A DNA stretch of 64,000 bases, from assembly GCF_003025035.1 (NCBI RefSeq), contig NZ_PYJN01000019.1, positions 1 to 64,000 on the forward strand, read 5' to 3'. Of this stretch, positions 38,700 to 46,595 are shown piece after piece (positions within the stretch are counted from its first letter, which is position 1; each line of letters starts with the position of its first letter). Source of the DNA: Rhizobium sp. SEMIA4064 (GTDB lineage: Bacteria; Pseudomonadota; Alphaproteobacteria; Rhizobiales; Rhizobiaceae). The position numbers and the translations under genes were made by a program. The notes under the pieces are model-generated. The model was not told the DNA's origin, did not search any database, and saw nothing but the letters and a program-made list of their open reading frames with translations.

Positions 38700-39701
38700 A
38701 TGACATTTCAAAACAGTTCGCGTCTCTACGCTGCTGTTTCATCCTTGTTGTGGCCGGCAATCTTTTGCGCCGGACTGACAGGCTCTTATTTTGCGTTTCA
38801 GTCGCATATGCAGCTCTTTTGGTTCAATGTCGTCTATCTCTCCGCCGTGGCGACGATTGCGCTTTTCGAGCGGCTTATGCCCTACGAGGAGACCTGGCTG
38901 GAGCGCGACGGCGAGACGTTTAGCAACATCGCACACACCCTTTTGAGCAAGGGCAGCGTGCAGATCGCGGCAGCCATCGCCACGTCATTTCCAATGGCTG
39001 TGGCGACTGTAGCGCAACCTTTTCTGAGCCATCAGGCGCATATTTGGCCGGAGCAATGGCCGATGGCCTTGCAGGTCGTGCTGGGGTTGATCATCGCCGA
39101 ATTCGGCCTCTATGCGGCCCATCGCCTTGCGCATGAGTACCTGACACTTTGGCGTTTCCATGCCTTGCATCACAGCGTCGAGCGGTTGTGGGTCATCAAT
39201 ACCGGACGTTTCCACATCATCGATTCGCTGTTCAAGATCGCGCTCGGCCAGATCCCGCTCTATCTCCTCGGTGCGCCGCTGCCGGTTTTCCTGTGGATTG
39301 GCGCGGTAACCGCGTTTATCGGCCTCCTCACCCATTGCAACATCGACGTGCGTACCGGCCCGCTCGATTGGTTCCTCTCGACGCCACGCCTGCACCGCTG
39401 GCATCACTCGAAACTGCTTTCCGAGGGCAACACCAATTACGGCGAAAACCTCGTGATCTGGGACCAGATCCTCGGTACTTACTATAACCCGCCCCGCCCC
39501 TCCTCCACGGACATCGGCATCACCGGCAAGGTCGCTAAGGGTTTCCTGGCGCAGCTCGTGCAACCCTTCTCCACCAAGGGACGCAGGCAGATCATTGGGA
39601 AAAAGCCGAAGGAACTGGTGGCCAAGGAAGAGCTGGCGGCAAGGAAGGCCGCTCTACGCAAGCAGGCCGACGAGCCGATCCGCAAACGAGCTGAGGGATG
39701 A
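38700..39701 (+). CDS. Sterol desaturase / fatty acid hydroxylase superfamily protein
   Basis: 333 residues with four or five membrane segments in the first 220. The di-iron histidine boxes are present: HRLAHEYLTLWRFHALHH (about 141-158) and LHRWHHSK (about 231-238), with an extra H in THCNID. Members hydroxylate or desaturate fatty acyl, sterol or carotenoid substrates using O2. The basic C-terminal tail (KKPKELVAKEELAARKAALRKQ in part) is unusual. It precedes the large E1-KASIII fusion by 259 nt on the same strand, which may point to shared lipid work. Confidence 0.85.
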   Translation: MTFQNSSRLYAAVSSLLWPAIFCAGLTGSYFAFQSHMQLFWFNVVYLSAVATIALFERLMPYEETWLERDGETFSNIAHTLLSKGSVQIAAAIATSFPMAVATVAQPFLSHQAHIWPEQWPMALQVVLGLIIAEFGLYAAHRLAHEYLTLWRFHALHHSVERLWVINTGRFHIIDSLFKIALGQIPLYLLGAPLPVFLWIGAVTAFIGLLTHCNIDVRTGPLDWFLSTPRLHRWHHSKLLSEGNTNYGENLVIWDQILGTYYNPPRPSSTDIGITGKVAKGFLAQLVQPFSTKGRRQIIGKKPKELVAKEELAARKAALRKQADEPIRKRAEG

Positions 39702-39960: not shown

Positions 39961-42900
39961 ATGGAAGGGAGATTTACCCCAGATCATCTCAAGCAACTTC
40001 ATAGAATATTTTTCACATCGCGTGAAATAGACCGGCTTGAACGAGAATTCATCAAGCAAGGCATAGCACATTTTCACGTTTCCGGTGCCGGACATGAGTC
40101 GACGGCGCTGCTCAACGAATTCCTCCATGATGACGATTGGTTGCATCTGCATTATCGCGACAAAGCTTTGATGCTGGCGCGCGGCATGCCCATTCGTGAG
40201 TTTTTCTCCAGTCTTCTCGCCACAGCCAATTCTCATTCCGCCGGCCGACAGATGAGCGCGCATCTTTCCTCCCGCGCTCTCAACATCACCTCGATCGTCG
40301 GCCCCGTCGGCAACAATGCACTGCATGCCGTCGGCGTCGGCGCGGCGCTGAAACACAAGTCCGGCATGCCGATCGCCATTTGCTGCCTCGGTGACGGCAC
40401 TACGCAGCAGGGCGAATTTGTCGAAGCCGTGGCTGAAGCCGTGCGCAGCCAATATCCCGTCGTCTTCATCGTCGAAGACAATAGTTTCTCCATCTCGACG
40501 CGCACCACCAAGCAGACCTTCTTCGATCTGCCAAACGGACCCGCCTCTTCTTTCTACGGTCTCGATATCATCCGTGCCGATGGCGATGATCTGCAGGCGT
40601 CGCGCGAAGCTTTCCGTAAAGCTGTCCGCCACAGCCGCAACAACCGCACGCCGAGCCTCGTAATTGTCAATGTCGAGCGCCTATCCGACCATACCAATGC
40701 CGATGACCAGAAGACCTATCGCACCCAGGAAGAGATCGAGACCGGCTCCGTCCGCGATCCGCTCGTCAATCTGCGTGCCGCTCTGCTGGAAGCGGGTGTC
40801 GACGCTGCCGCACTGGAACAGATCGAGAAAGATCTGACCGCCGAGGTGCAGGCGGAAGCAGCCCTTGCCCGCAAGGAAGATGCGCCGCATGTCGAGCCGG
40901 AAGCGAAGGCGCCCTACCCGGCTTCGTTCGACAAGACGACTGAATATCGCGGCGGCAAGAGTGCCGCCACGCTGACCATGCGCGAGGCGCTGAACGGCGT
41001 GCTCGACAAGCAGCTTGCCGACAATCCGGATGTCGTCCTTTTCGGCCAGGATATCGAAGACCCCAAGGGCGACGTCTTCGGCGTCACCCGCGGTCTCAGC
41101 ACGAAATATCCCGAACGGGTGCACAATGCGGCGCTCAGCGAATCCACCATTGTCGGCACCGCGGTCGGCCGTGCGCTTGCCGGTCAGCGCCCGGTTGCTT
41201 TCCTGCAATTCGCCGATTTCCTGCCGCTCGCCTATAACCAGATCGTCTCGGAAATGGGCAGCATGTTCTGGCGCACCCAGGGCGCCTGGGAATCACCCGT
41301 CATCCTCATGGTGAGCTGTGGCGGCTACAAGCCGGGCCTCGGACCGTTCCATGCGCAAAGCTTCGAGAGCATGCTGGCGCACACGCCCGGTATCGACGTC
41401 GTCATGCCCTCCAGCGCCGGCGATGCCGCTGGCCTGCTCAACGCAGCCTTCGAGTCACGCCGCCCGACCGTTTTCCTCTACCCAAAGGCCGTGCTCAACA
41501 ATTCCGACGGTCGCACATCCACCGATCTCGATAAGCATTTCGTCCGCCCCGGCCTCTCACGTTACGTCGCCCGCGGCCGCGACCTGACGCTGGTCACCTA
41601 CGGCAACACCGTTTCGCTCTGTGCCAAGGCGGCGAGTGCCTTCGAAGCCCAGGGATTTTCGGTTGAAGTCATCGACCTCCGCTCGATCTCGCCCTGGGAC
41701 GAGAAGGAAGTGCTTGCGAGCGCCAAGCGCACCAGGCGCCTGATCGTCGTGCATGAGGACAATCGCACGGTCGGCATGGGCGCCGAAATCGTCGCGACCG
41801 TCACCGAGAAGACCGACGTACCGGTCGTCGTCCGCCGGCTCGCCCGTTCGGATGCGCATGTGCCGTTTAATTTCCGCAATCAGTTGGAAACGCTGCCATC
41901 CTACAGCAAGCTGGTCGATCTGATGGCCGAGGTTCTCGAATGCGAGGTTACCTGGCATGAGGAAGACAAGTCCGGCCCGACTGCAGCCATCAAGGCCATC
42001 GGCTCCGGCCCTGCCGATGAAAGCGTGCTGGTGACCGATATGCTGGTCAAGCCCGGCGATACGATCGAAGTCGGCCAGCTCGTCGCCGTGGTCGAAGCAA
42101 CCAAGGCTTCGGTCGAAATCTGCGCCAATATCGGCGGCGTTGTTCAGGAAGTTTTCGCCAAGATCGGCGATCAGATCGCCACCGACAGCGCGCTTTTGAC
42201 CGTCGACGCCGACCGTGACCTCAGCGAACGCAATTTCGCGCTTGCCTCGGAAGCCCATAATAAGTTCGTGCTCCGGCGGCTGAAATCCCATTCGATCCCG
42301 GCGCTCCGCCGTCATTCCGGCAACTTCTCCGAAATTGCCGTCAGCGGCATGGGTTTTGCGACCGGCGCCCGCCGCGTCAGCAACGAAGACATCATCCATA
42401 ACTGGCCGAACCGGCGCGCCGAGGAAATTTTTGCGCTGACCGGCATCAAGAGCCGCTTCTGGATTGGCCCCGACGAAGGCACGTTGAGCCTCGCGACCAA
42501 GGCTGTCCGCGATCTCTTGCGCCAGACCAATATGACGATCCATGACATGGACCTCGTCATCGCAGCGACAGGCACGCCCGATATTGCCACGCCGTCGCTT
42601 GCAAGCCGTGTTGCGGTTGCCGTTGCCGAAGATGGCGTGCGGCCTTCGCTTGCCGCCTATGACATGGGAGCCGCCTGCTCCGGCTATCTCTACGCCCTGC
42701 AGCAGGCCTACGACTTCATCGCCCAGCAGAACGACGCCAAGGTGCTGATTGTCACTTCGGAAGTGCTATCGCCGCTGCTCGACATGAACGATTTCTCGAC
42801 GGCCATCCTGTTCGGCGATGCCGCCACGGCATGTCTCGTGACCAGCCGCGACATGGCGCGCAATCCGCTGTTTGCCGCGAGCCGTCCGGTCATCAGCGGC

Positions 42901-43284
42901 CGTCCGGAGCCGGGTGACCTTCTCTATGTGCCGCTGCCGGACGAAGGCGTCATTTCGATGAACGGCCGCTCGGTCTTCACCGAAGCCGTGCATTCCATGT
43001 CGCGCTCGATCGAGGACGCTTGCGTCGATGCCGGGCTTGAACTCGCCAATCTCGATCTTCTGGTGCCGCATCAGGCCAACCAGCGCATCATCGACACCAT
43101 TGCCAAGCGCAGTGGCCGGCCGGCGCTCAGCGTCATCGAAACCTACGGCAACACCAGCTCGTCAAGCATCCCGCTTGCCATGATGCACGTTGCCAAAGAA
43201 CACCCCGAGCCGCTCAATCTCGGCCTCGTCGCCTTCGGCGGCGGCATGACATCGGGCGCCGCCATCGTGCGAACGATCAAATAG
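39961..43284 (+). CDS. Fusion of 2-oxoacid dehydrogenase E1 alpha + E1 beta + lipoyl domain + ketoacyl-ACP synthase III
   Basis: 1107 residues in one uninterrupted frame. E1 alpha (about 1-310) has the TPP motif GDG (144-146) to N174. E1 beta (about 330-650) has the conserved Glu in LSESTIVGT (E394) and a transketolase C-domain. A lipoyl domain (about 665-745) carries VEATKASVEI with lysine K715 in place of the usual ETDKA. A KAS III (FabH-like) domain (about 775-1107) has the full triad: Cys906 in GAACSGYL, His1037 in PHQANQRI, Asn1064 in YGNTSSSS. No E2 acyltransferase core (HxxxDG) is seen. The domain order implies decarboxylation of a 2-oxoacid, acyl loading on the lipoyl arm, and direct transfer to the KAS Cys for condensation with malonyl-ACP. 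That transfer is inference. A terminator follows. Confidence 0.9.
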   Translation: MEGRFTPDHLKQLHRIFFTSREIDRLEREFIKQGIAHFHVSGAGHESTALLNEFLHDDDWLHLHYRDKALMLARGMPIREFFSSLLATANSHSAGRQMSAHLSSRALNITSIVGPVGNNALHAVGVGAALKHKSGMPIAICCLGDGTTQQGEFVEAVAEAVRSQYPVVFIVEDNSFSISTRTTKQTFFDLPNGPASSFYGLDIIRADGDDLQASREAFRKAVRHSRNNRTPSLVIVNVERLSDHTNADDQKTYRTQEEIETGSVRDPLVNLRAALLEAGVDAAALEQIEKDLTAEVQAEAALARKEDAPHVEPEAKAPYPASFDKTTEYRGGKSAATLTMREALNGVLDKQLADNPDVVLFGQDIEDPKGDVFGVTRGLSTKYPERVHNAALSESTIVGTAVGRALAGQRPVAFLQFADFLPLAYNQIVSEMGSMFWRTQGAWESPVILMVSCGGYKPGLGPFHAQSFESMLAHTPGIDVVMPSSAGDAAGLLNAAFESRRPTVFLYPKAVLNNSDGRTSTDLDKHFVRPGLSRYVARGRDLTLVTYGNTVSLCAKAASAFEAQGFSVEVIDLRSISPWDEKEVLASAKRTRRLIVVHEDNRTVGMGAEIVATVTEKTDVPVVVRRLARSDAHVPFNFRNQLETLPSYSKLVDLMAEVLECEVTWHEEDKSGPTAAIKAIGSGPADESVLVTDMLVKPGDTIEVGQLVAVVEATKASVEICANIGGVVQEVFAKIGDQIATDSALLTVDADRDLSERNFALASEAHNKFVLRRLKSHSIPALRRHSGNFSEIAVSGMGFATGARRVSNEDIIHNWPNRRAEEIFALTGIKSRFWIGPDEGTLSLATKAVRDLLRQTNMTIHDMDLVIAATGTPDIATPSLASRVAVAVAEDGVRPSLAAYDMGAACSGYLYALQQAYDFIAQQNDAKVLIVTSEVLSPLLDMNDFSTAILFGDAATACLVTSRDMARNPLFAASRPVISGRPEPGDLLYVPLPDEGVISMNGRSVFTEAVHSMSRSIEDACVDAGLELANLDLLVPHQANQRIIDTIAKRSGRPALSVIETYGNTSSSSIPLAMMHVAKEHPEPLNLGLVAFGGGMTSGAAIVRTIK

Positions 43285-43371: not shown

Positions 43372-44217
43372 TCATGCCTTCGGGCGGTTTCTCAGCGCCT
43401 CGGCTTCGGCATAAAACTTCTTTTCCCATTCCTTGTGATTGTCGAGGCCTTCGCGGATGAACGGCGTGAAGATCGCCAGGTTCATCAGCGCCCAGTTGAC
43501 CACGCGGGCCGGGAATTTCAGCGGCTTGACGAAATCGACGAAGAGCACGACGCGGGTCTTGTCGGTGTGGTTCCAGGCCTCATGCTCATAGGCGTCGTCG
43601 AAAATCAGCGCCTTGCCTTCCTGCCAGTGGCAGACCTGCCTGTCGACGCGGATCGCGAGCTGATCGTTCGGCTCCGGCACGATGAGACCCACATGCAGGC
43701 GCAACACGCCGTTATAGGGGCCGCGATGAGCCGGAAGGTGTTTACCCGGCTCGAAGATCGAGAACATCGCCGTTTTCAGACCCGGAATTTTCTGCACGGC
43801 CGCCCAGGTGTTCGGGCAGGCTTTGATGTTCTGTTCGGACTTCACGCCGAAACCGAGAAGGAAGAAGGTCTTCCAGCGGCTATCCGTCGAAATGGTCTTC
43901 ACATCGGTGGAAATGTCCTGGAAGGTCGGCAGCTCGCTCTGGCGCAGCAGCACCTTTTCCAGCTCGGCACGGATCGCGGGATAGTCCTTCTCGATCTCGG
44001 CGGCCCAGGGAAAGGTCGCATTGTCATAGACCGGCGGATTGCCGAGCTTGGCATATTTCAGGTTGAGGCTTTCGGCCCAAGCGACGATGCCCATGAAAAA
44101 GCGTGTCATTGCGCTGGGCCGGTCCATCGGTGCGATGCCGGCTGTGCCGAAGGTTTGTTCCGGAGCACGCGGCTCGGTGGTTGTGGGAGCTGGTACGCTC
44201 AAAGTGCTCTCCGTCAT
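43372..44217 (-). CDS. Aspartyl/asparaginyl beta-hydroxylase family protein (LpxO-like)
   Basis: 281 residues. The Fe(II)/2-oxoglutarate site appears as HLPAHRGPYNGVLRLHVGLIVP (about 158-179) and ALIFDDAYEHEAWNHT (about 207-222), giving the H-x-D/E...H ligands and R for the co-substrate. A C-terminal hydrophobic segment is present. LpxO members 2-hydroxylate the secondary acyl chains of lipid A; others modify proteins. Closeness to lipid genes (38700, 39961) makes a lipid role plausible. It has its own 3' terminator. Confidence 0.82.
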   Translation of the reverse strand: MTESTLSVPAPTTTEPRAPEQTFGTAGIAPMDRPSAMTRFFMGIVAWAESLNLKYAKLGNPPVYDNATFPWAAEIEKDYPAIRAELEKVLLRQSELPTFQDISTDVKTISTDSRWKTFFLLGFGVKSEQNIKACPNTWAAVQKIPGLKTAMFSIFEPGKHLPAHRGPYNGVLRLHVGLIVPEPNDQLAIRVDRQVCHWQEGKALIFDDAYEHEAWNHTDKTRVVLFVDFVKPLKFPARVVNWALMNLAIFTPFIREGLDNHKEWEKKFYAEAEALRNRPKA

Positions 44218-44580: not shown

Positions 44581-44970
44581 TTATGCCGTCTGGCTTTGCC
44601 CGAGCAGCCGAATGATCATGAGCCCGGCGACCAATGCGGCCAATGACAGGAAAACGGAAAACATGATATAGATCAACGAGCTCGCCCATTGGCCCCGCTC
44701 CCAGAGAGCGATGGCATCCAATGAAAAGGTCGAGAATGTCGTGAAGCCGCCGAGGATGCCCGTGGTCAGAAAGAGCCGCAACTCCTGCGACAAGCCACTG
44801 CGGAGAACGAAATATTCGGTCAGCAAGCCCATGATCAATGAGCCGACGACATTGACCACGAGAGTCCCATAGGGAAAGCCGAGACCAAACAAGCGGATGC
44901 TCGCCTGATTGACGCCAAGACGAAAGGCGCCGCCCAATCCGGCGCCAAGGAAGACGATCAGATAATTCAT
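44581..44970 (-). CDS. crcB: Fluoride channel CrcB/Fluc
   Basis: 129 residues, four membrane helices, with the family motifs GGAFRLGVNQ (about 13-22), YGTLVVNVVGSLIMG (about 34-48) and GGFTTFSTF (about 74-82). Fluc dimers let fluoride leave the cell passively. GGGGAG precedes the ATG. It lies 132 nt downstream of the CLC-F gene on the same strand, so the region encodes two independent fluoride exporters. Confidence 0.94.
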   Translation of the reverse strand: MNYLIVFLGAGLGGAFRLGVNQASIRLFGLGFPYGTLVVNVVGSLIMGLLTEYFVLRSGLSQELRLFLTTGILGGFTTFSTFSLDAIALWERGQWASSLIYIMFSVFLSLAALVAGLMIIRLLGQSQTA

Positions 44971-45102: not shown

Positions 45103-46506
45103 TCATGGCTCCGAGCCTTCCCATTGGGTTTGTGATGGCGCCCGGCGAACTTTGCCGACCATATCCCCGAGTGAATTGACGTTGAGATCGCGAACGTGAC
45201 GAAGAGTGACGTCAACGGGAATGTGACTAGCGGCAGCACTCTTCACGATGCCGATGCGCTGCGACAGATAGATACTGGTGTGACCGCTGCAGATGTAGGC
45301 AAGAAAGCAGGCGACAGCGAGATAGACCGTATGCATTGCGCCGAAGAGTTCGATGCCCATGATCATGCACGCGAGCGGCGTATTGGTGGCACCTGCGAAA
45401 ACCGCGACAAAACCGAGAGCCGCAAACAGATCGACCGGCGCGCCGAGAACGGCGGCAATGGCATTGCCAAGTGCGGCACCGATGAAGAATAGCGGCGTCA
45501 CCTCGCCACCCTTGAAGCCGGCGCTGAGCGTCACGATCGTGAAGACAGCCTTCCAAAACCAGCTCCAGTAGTCGATACGCGCCGGATCGAAGAAACCCGG
45601 AATCGTCGCATCGCCGATATTGGGCGACCAGACACCGAGGCCCAGATATTCGCGCGTGCCGAGCAGATAGACGAGGCCGATCAGGACTGCGCTGGCGATG
45701 ACCGGCCTCAGCGGCGCGTAGGCGCAGATGCTCTTGAAGAGAGCCGACATCCTATGGGAAATTTCGCTGAAGCAGCGTGCCATCAGTCCGAAAAGCACGC
45801 CGGCGACGCCGACTTTTGCCAGCAGCAGCGGGTCGAGATGAAACGTGCTCGCGGGCGTGCCGGCAAGATAGGCGACGTGATACTGAACATGTTCGATGCC
45901 CCAGGCATGGCAGGTCCAGTCGGCCGCAATGGCTGCAGCAAGAGAGGGGATCAACGCTTCATATTGCATGCGCCCGATGGTCAGCACCTCGAGCGCAAAG
46001 ACCGCGCCGGCAATCGGCGTACCGAACACCGCGCCGAAACCGGCAGCAACGCCGGCCATCAGCAGGATACGAACTTCGGCATGGCTGAGACGGAAAAGCT
46101 TAGCAAAGGCGCTGGCAATACTGCCGCCGAGCTGCACTGCCGTTCCCTCGCGCCCCGCCGAACCACCGACCAGATGCGTCAATACAGTCGAGACGAGGAT
46201 AAGCGGCGCCATACGCAGCGGCACGCCGCCGCCGGGCTCATGGATCTGCTCGACGATCAGATTGTTGCCACCCTCCGCCCCCCGGCCGAAGCGCTGATAG
46301 GTCAGCACCATCAGGAAGCCCGCGACCGGCATCAGAAAGATCAACCAGGGCTGATCGAAACGCGCCGCCGTTGCCCGGTCGAGGCTCCAGAGAAACAGCG
46401 CGCAGAGCGATCCGACCACGGCGGCCATCGGCACCACTAGGACGATCCATTTGAATATGCTGCGCAGTTGCTGAAAACGATGATGAAAAAATAAGGATGC
46501 GGACAT
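45103..46506 (-). CDS. CLC-type fluoride/proton antiporter (CLC-F)
   Basis: 467 residues from the ATG at 46506, with GAGAGG 7 nt upstream. The anion-site motif reads [11 protein letters not shown] (about 129-139), GREGT rather than the chloride-type GREGP, which marks the fluoride-specific CLC branch; later come [18 protein letters not shown] and [14 protein letters not shown]. It would expel F- in exchange for H+. Its start codon shares an A with the stop of a 29-codon leader ORF (TGATG). crcB downstream supports the fluoride role. Confidence 0.88.
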
Positions 46507-46595
46507 CAGTTCGCCTCTCCCGGAAGACCAGCGGTGGATCTTTCGGGGAAAATGATCATTGAGCAAGAAAGGGGTAACAACAGAATTGCAGACAT
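46506..46595 (-). CDS. 29-residue leader peptide ORF coupled to the CLC-F gene
   Basis: ATG at 46595 with a strong AAGGAG 7 nt upstream (46603-46608), opening [11 protein letters not shown] and ending GLPGEAN; its TGA overlaps the CLC start as TGATG. The peptide is hydrophobic in its first half. The layout implies that ribosomes reaching the leader stop restart on the CLC gene, so control of the leader start would control CLC. Its own RBS can be hidden by pairing with the upstream RNA. Confidence 0.6.

Follow-up and report, generated by a model that had tools for sequence, protein, structure and literature searches.

A Rhizobium fusion protein of 2-oxoacid dehydrogenase E1, lipoyl arm and ketoacyl synthase III as a candidate coenzyme A-independent starter synthase

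A 64,000-nucleotide stretch of the genome of Rhizobium sp. SEMIA4064 (contig NZ_PYJN01000019.1, positions 1 to 64,000; hereafter, the window) contains a gene whose product joins a complete 2-oxoacid dehydrogenase E1, a lipoyl domain and a ketoacyl-acyl carrier protein (ACP) synthase III (KAS III) in one polypeptide without an E2 core (Table 1). In the textbook scheme, fatty acid synthesis is initiated with acyl-coenzyme A (CoA) and malonyl-ACP. The features described below suggest that the fusion protein probably works as a starter synthase on its own, free of E2 and CoA, in which the acyl group would move from E1 to the lipoyl arm and on to the KAS cysteine before meeting malonyl-ACP. The chances are slightly better than even that it represents an undescribed chain-initiating class, distributed over at least eight phyla, which would convert a 2-oxoacid to a 3-oxoacyl-ACP on a single polypeptide with neither E2 nor CoA. 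No description of an E1-lipoyl-KAS III fusion was found in the literature (open-licence papers).

All six Pfam domain matches in the fusion protein exceeded the curated cut-off, the KAS III part being matched in two halves (ACP_syn_III, residues 900-967; ACP_syn_III_C, residues 1023-1104). The thiamine pyrophosphate (TPP) motif GDG...N, the catalytic Glu and the E1 folds (PF00676, PF02779 and PF02780) mark the E1 part as complete. The key residues named in the first-pass annotation, which was made from the sequence alone, were GDG 144-146, N174, E394, K715, C906, H1037 and N1064, and each was found at its position. N174, E394, K715, C906 and H1037 were invariant in 79/79 ortholog rows, and N1064 was present in the 78/78 rows extending that far, the remaining row being cut off by a contig end; D145 was replaced by Glu in four of the 79 rows and G146 by Ser in one. 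Lys715 is the predicted lipoylation site. The lipoyl motif was mostly E-A-x-K-A/S across the orthologs, and the residue preceding the lysine was Thr in 49 rows and Asp, as in the usual DKA type (DKA or DKS), in 21 of the 79. The spacing from Lys715 to Cys906 was 186-209 residues in 79/79 rows.

Each of 41 diverse orthologs matched the E1, lipoyl and KAS models, and none of them matched the E2 core (PF00198) or the peripheral subunit-binding domain (PF02817) at E 0.001. The first-pass claim of E1, lipoyl arm and KAS III in one frame without E2 was thus borne out, and no E2-like domain turned up in the linker, where it had been looked for as a point that would speak against the claim: the stretch separating the lipoyl and KAS domains was about 40-60 residues in the orthologs, and the linker of the Rhizobium protein, with ca. 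40 residues, is too short for an E2 core. An AlphaFold2 model of the fusion protein (41 sequences) had a mean predicted local distance difference test score (pLDDT) of 88.5. Its E1 beta part was superimposable on the branched-chain E1 beta 1um9_B (Z 44.4, root mean square deviation 1.6 Å, 320 residues), and its KAS part matched FabH structures with Z of ca. 42; the structure-comparison matches listed were of the E1, transketolase or KAS III type and scarcely covered the lipoyl part and the linker. While 42 NCBIfam models matched the fusion protein, none of the 25 matches listed reached the cut-off, so that these matches give it no proper NCBIfam family name. FabH-type models stayed under their cut-offs (NF006829, 235.3 vs 249; TIGR00747, 193.6 vs 292.1).

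A passage of PMC4606726 describes the adenine of CoA as sandwiched by Trp32 and Arg151 of FabH. Both residues were lost in the fusion KAS domains (Table 1), as compared with 30 standalone KAS III proteins, namely the 29 best-matching ones from a 100-genome phylum sample and the FabH of the same genome. Among the 78 fusions, the Trp32 column was occupied by Asp or Glu in 73 and by Q, K, M, S or G in 5, the Arg151 column by Phe in 65, Pro in 7, Tyr in 3 and L, Q or E in 3, and no W or R was present within two columns of these positions. The Cys-His-Asn triad was kept in 78/78 fusions together with the equivalent of Arg249, which we take to be the ACP-side arginine, and the Asn247 equivalent was present in 77/78. 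Phe87, presumably the gate of the acyl pocket, was Phe in 29/30 standalone proteins vs Thr or Ser in 77/78 fusions, a replacement that would widen the pocket. Loss of the CoA-stacking residues with retention of the triad and the ACP-side arginine is as expected for a CoA-independent starter synthase; it fits a condensing enzyme that would meet ACP and receive its acyl group from a donor other than acyl-CoA.

Based on these features, we infer the following course of reaction, including lipoylation, the handover, the extender, the re-oxidation and an aliphatic 2-oxoacid as the substrate. E1 (residues 1-660) would decarboxylate the 2-oxoacid on TPP and reductively acylate the lipoyl group on Lys715. 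From there, the acyl group would be passed by the arm straight to Cys906, ca. 190 residues onward, a step replacing the E2 transfer to CoA, and the KAS domain would condense it with malonyl-ACP to 3-oxoacyl-ACP, the start of a fatty acid or a related chain. The dihydrolipoyl arm would be re-oxidised in trans by lipoamide dehydrogenase. A CoA-independent starter unit had been proposed in the first-pass annotation; its structural side, the E2-less joining of E1, lipoyl arm and KAS III, held and was joined by the absence of the stacking residues from all fusions, while lipoylation, transfer, substrate and product keep the standing of predictions. The E1 alpha part carries the branched-chain-type motif GRQM (GRRM in some planctomycetes), whereas the pyruvate dehydrogenase (PDH) of the same genome has GKGGSM. 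Its best solved relatives were 2-oxoacid or branched-chain E1s, with PDH close behind. The substrate would, judging from these likenesses, be a branched or other aliphatic 2-oxoacid, the branched type being favoured.

The partner enzymes were sought in the genome of SEMIA4064, the assembly of which was rated 82% complete, so that absences are not firm. Other E1-type matches comprised alpha and beta genes on contig 5 and, on contig 19, a weak match of the beta type; the contig 5 genes were taken as PDH because of the GKGGSM motif and the adjoining E2 and E3 genes. There were only two E2 cores, one adjoining the PDH E1 genes and the other on contig 15, and this assembly therefore offers no spare E2 for the fusion E1. 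Lipoamide dehydrogenase was found above the cut-off twice and LipB once. A type III polyketide synthase-like frame, judged by eye (L003, G000:C19:58338-61604; loci and genomes are given L and G numbers), provides the third ACP_syn_III_C match of the genome.

The fusion protein shares the E1 folds, the catalytic residues, GRQM and the lipoyl domain with the branched-chain 2-oxoacid dehydrogenase complex (E1 alpha2beta2, E2 and E3), but its E1 chains are joined, its lipoyl domain is on E1, and KAS III replaces the E2 core and the subunit-binding domain. With FabH (3-oxoacyl-ACP synthase III) it has in common the fold, the triad, the ACP-side arginine and the HQAN and GNTSS motifs; unlike FabH, it is devoid of Trp32, Arg151 and the Phe87 gate and is joined to its presumed acyl supplier. 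The sister of the fusion E1 clade consisted of two Streptomyces E1 alpha-beta proteins, L189 and L190 (SH-aLRT support 95, quick tree with long branches). The next gene in both encodes a megasynthase starting with lipoyl, E2-like, carrier protein and ketosynthase domains (Pfam for L189, by eye for L190), and the dedicated Streptomyces E1 apparently charges the carrier with a starter via the lipoyl arm and the E2-like domain. A fused E1 alpha-beta, a lipoyl arm, and a carrier and ketosynthase downstream are thus shared with these loaders, which differ in having the lipoyl and E2-like domains on the megasynthase instead of E1 and a ketosynthase of the modular type (PF00109); in L189, the lipoyl domain shares its polypeptide with an E2-like domain and ACP, which were absent from 41/41 fusions. 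Both Streptomyces clusters (L189:11956-26196 and L190:7869-17896) are on plasmids, and their E2 motif is altered to HTVLNG or HTVFNG instead of HxxxDG. In naphthyridinomycin and quinocarcin synthesis, NapB/NapD and QncN/QncL bring a lipoyl-borne C2 unit to a carrier protein without CoA; they differ from the fusion in the E2-type transfer to ACP, the ketose-phosphate donor and the lack of KAS III.

In the genus, the fusion was found in 42/148 genomes at E <= 1e-95, the genome of the window included; as exceptions, it was split over two contigs in G1227, and the copy in G1134 was 61% identical. Full-length matches were obtained in 4/394 genomes of a family sample (all of the genus, own included), 2/397 of an order sample (own and one of the genus) and 2/398 of a phylum sample (own and G1095, of another family, 47% identical). 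G1095 was the sole carrier outside the genus in these samples, and with so few carriers the fusion is therefore rare within Pseudomonadota. A scan across species with two E1 peptide patterns from a four-ortholog alignment (84,980 species, one genome each) gave 140 relatives, the best 80 of which are the named loci. These best 80 were 43-98% identical, all ran from E1 into KAS, and they belonged to eight phyla altogether: Pseudomonadota (37), Planctomycetota (20), Spirochaetota (10), Verrucomicrobiota (8), Lentisphaerota (2), and Cyanobacteriota, Myxococcota and Sumerlaeota (one each). All 43 non-proteobacterial records were labelled as metagenome-assembled genomes (MAGs), the isolates among these loci being solely Pseudomonadota. 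Open reading frame calling recovered the fusion frame in 79/80 loci, and L095 was likewise open across the matched stretch. Among plasmid records, 1044 had a match and none spanned 80% of the query; six peptide patterns gave no match in viral contigs.

The ratio of nonsynonymous to synonymous substitution rates (dN/dS) against one 90%-identical ortholog was 0.074 for the whole gene, 0.075 for E1, 0.03 for the lipoyl part and 0.075 for KAS, showing, on this sequence comparison, that the gene is under purifying selection. In trees built with a quick method, 33 fusion E1s were separated by one branch from 24 others (SH-aLRT 99), and 32 fusion KAS domains from 30 others (SH-aLRT 100). Both trees, which had modest comparison sets and some long rows, are consistent with a single fusion event. 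Several relatives had peculiarities of their own. L067:8281-11604 (minus strand), in G1134, is a divergent copy, ca. 60% identical, situated away from the ols genes described below; its E1 clusters with Devosia, perhaps reflecting horizontal transfer. The verrucomicrobial L137:8849-13351 has an open frame of 1501 residues; the ca. 390 surplus residues at the N-terminus match no Pfam model and may only reflect an upstream-extended start. In the planctomycete L133:9932-13568, HPGS replaces HQAN and the KAS branch is very long.

Carrier-protein genes near two distant orthologs of the fusion bear on how the KAS domain is loaded. In L133, such a gene overlaps the end of the fusion gene, and the cluster L100:3966-13345, a possible natural-product cluster, encodes a TauD-type oxygenase, an AMP-ligase, a carrier protein, an E2-like acyltransferase, an LPG-synthase-like protein and the fusion, the AMP-ligase, carrier-protein, E2-like and LPG-synthase-like genes being upstream of the fusion gene. 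These carrier-protein genes were counted for a starter synthase. They also speak for a KAS domain loaded by acyl-ACP, with the E1-lipoyl part serving another acceptor and the fusion joining two steps of one pathway, as do the E2-like gene of L100 and the loss of the stacking residues, which fits any non-CoA donor and would also fit acyl-ACP. We regard this alternative as unlikely, since the genome has no spare E2 core and the conserved spacing between Lys715 and Cys906 is a tight tether for unrelated steps. The KAS domain could instead be a non-condensing acyltransferase, delivering the acyl group from the lipoyl arm to ACP or another thiol or amine as a functional substitute for E2; it occupies the place of E2, and some KAS III relatives act as acyltransferases. 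KAS His and Asn are needed for malonyl decarboxylation, however, and the retention of the full triad in 78/78 fusion rows makes this role rather improbable. An ordinary acyl-CoA route, in which the E1-lipoyl part and the PDH E2 in trans would produce acyl-CoA for FabH-like use by the tethered KAS III, can draw on the E2 gene beside the PDH E1 genes, but with Trp32 and Arg151 lost in 78/78 fusions and no peripheral subunit-binding domain in 41/41 orthologs, it is very improbable. A mis-assembled junction, which the first-pass annotation had named as a possible refutation, and a chance or decaying fusion were checked and, for practical purposes, excluded by the 80 named loci, the 42/148 genus genomes and the dN/dS of 0.07, and nothing was found in their favour.

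For the CoA-independent starter synthase, which we prefer, there are opposing points besides the fit to acyl-ACP and the E2-like gene of L100. His101 of E1 alpha was Phe in 17/79 rows, and the equivalent of Arg36, which presumably touches pantetheine, was kept in 38/78 fusions. The standalone KAS III set was picked by similarity and is FabH-like, non-CoA KAS III being left out of the comparison. The predicted template modelling score (pTM) of the fusion model was 0.69. Few loci had a carrier protein beside the fusion and no E3 was seen among the neighbours, which were annotated in part, and the L133 fusion, judging from its altered motif and long branch, may have changed function.

Table 1 Features of the fusion gene and its flanking genes in the window
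Feature	Position	Strand	Evidence
olsE, ornithine-lipid hydroxylase	38700..39701	+	NCBIfam 562.7 bits (cut-off 475); ca. 260 bases upstream of the fusion gene
E1 alpha-E1 beta-lipoyl-KAS III fusion gene	39961..43284	+	Single open ATG-started frame, 1107 residues; orthologs
E1 alpha, residues 20-311 (E1_dh)	40018..40893	+	Pfam; TPP motif GDG144-146 to N174; GRQM 95-98
E1 beta (Transket_pyr 337-512, Transketolase_C 535-642)	40969..41886	+	Pfam; catalytic Glu394; fold match 1um9_B
Lipoyl domain, residues 687-747 (Biotin_lipoyl)	42019..42201	+	Pfam; PDB match to E2 lipoyl domains (7b9k, 8.3e-24)
Lys715, predicted lipoyl attachment site	42103..42105	+	79/79 ortholog rows
Lipoyl-KAS linker, residues 750-790, ca. 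40 residues	42208..42330	+	Model confidence lowest at 776-787
KAS III domain, residues 791-1105	42331..43275	+	NF006829 235.3 bits (cut-off 249); FabH structures, Z ca. 42
Glu822, equivalent of FabH Trp32, lost	42424..42426	+	W in 30/30 standalone, 0/78 fusions
Cys906, KAS nucleophile	42676..42678	+	79/79 rows
Phe945, equivalent of FabH Arg151, lost	42793..42795	+	R in 30/30 standalone, 0/78 fusions
His1037, KAS triad	43069..43071	+	79/79 rows
Asn1064, KAS triad	43150..43152	+	78/78 rows reaching that position
olsC, ornithine-lipid acyl 2-hydroxylase, convergent	43372..44217	-	NCBIfam 538.6 bits (cut-off 450)

The genes flanking the fusion had been described at first pass as a fatty acid hydroxylase and an LpxO-like gene. 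Both are present, and their proper names by NCBIfam are OlsE and OlsC, respectively; OlsC scored merely 126.5 with the LpxO model against a cut-off of 500. olsE was just upstream on the same strand in 26/26 named loci of the Rhizobium group, and olsC was downstream and convergent in 24/26, with a gap of ca. 3.9 kb in 14 of those 24, which was filled by other genes in six loci inspected. The surroundings of the other 54 named loci, short in some cases, and those of L066 and L067 gave no match to OlsE or OlsC (E 1e-10). OlsC was above the cut-off in 42/42 fusion carriers, 44/106 non-carriers and 86/148 genus genomes (kinship ignored), and 8/8 OlsC-positive, fusion-negative loci inspected had neither the fusion nor olsE within 12-18 kb. 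The linkage of the fusion with the ols genes is local to the Rhizobium group. As a functional clue, the lipid hydroxylase neighbours proved weak, and a role of the fusion in ornithine-lipid synthesis was rejected because OlsC also occurs in those non-carriers and the 54 non-Rhizobium loci gave no ols match. Beyond olsC, the window encodes a small membrane protein, CrcB-like by eye (44581-44970, minus strand; downstream of olsC), and a ClC chloride channel, probably SycA, whose gene adjoins olsC (45103-46566, minus strand; Pfam). Passages of PMC5936775 and PMC3557214 describe a sycA-olsC acid-tolerance locus in R. tropici CIAT 899, and the ClC-olsC arrangement of the window, likened by gene content, appears to fit this locus.

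Neighbour clustering of the 80 loci revealed no gene family that repeatedly adjoins the fusion in different phyla. Scattered recurrent neighbours, judged by eye, included a response-regulator/sensor cluster in 9 non-Rhizobium loci and ABC transporters in 5. Three Spirochaetaceae loci (L116, L122 and L125; Pfam on L116) encode, downstream of the fusion, an SDR-type reductase, possibly a ketoreductase. In the planctomycetes L115, L121, L132, L140 and L147, a BMC-type gene starts 10-25 bases 3' of the fusion; the product of the L132 gene, the one scanned, has a double BMC domain (Pfam), hinting at a link of the fusion with a microcompartment shell protein.

Since the fusion gene is present in cultured Rhizobium strains, the proposed reaction is directly testable. 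If the proposal is true, a starter drawn from a 2-oxoacid via the lipoyl arm would uncouple chain initiation from the CoA pool, and the fusion would offer a single-protein tool for introducing branched or unusual starters. It would also imply that rhizobia and Devosia and, as judged by MAGs, planctomycetes, verrucomicrobia and spirochaetes make a lipid or small molecule that has so far gone unrecognised.

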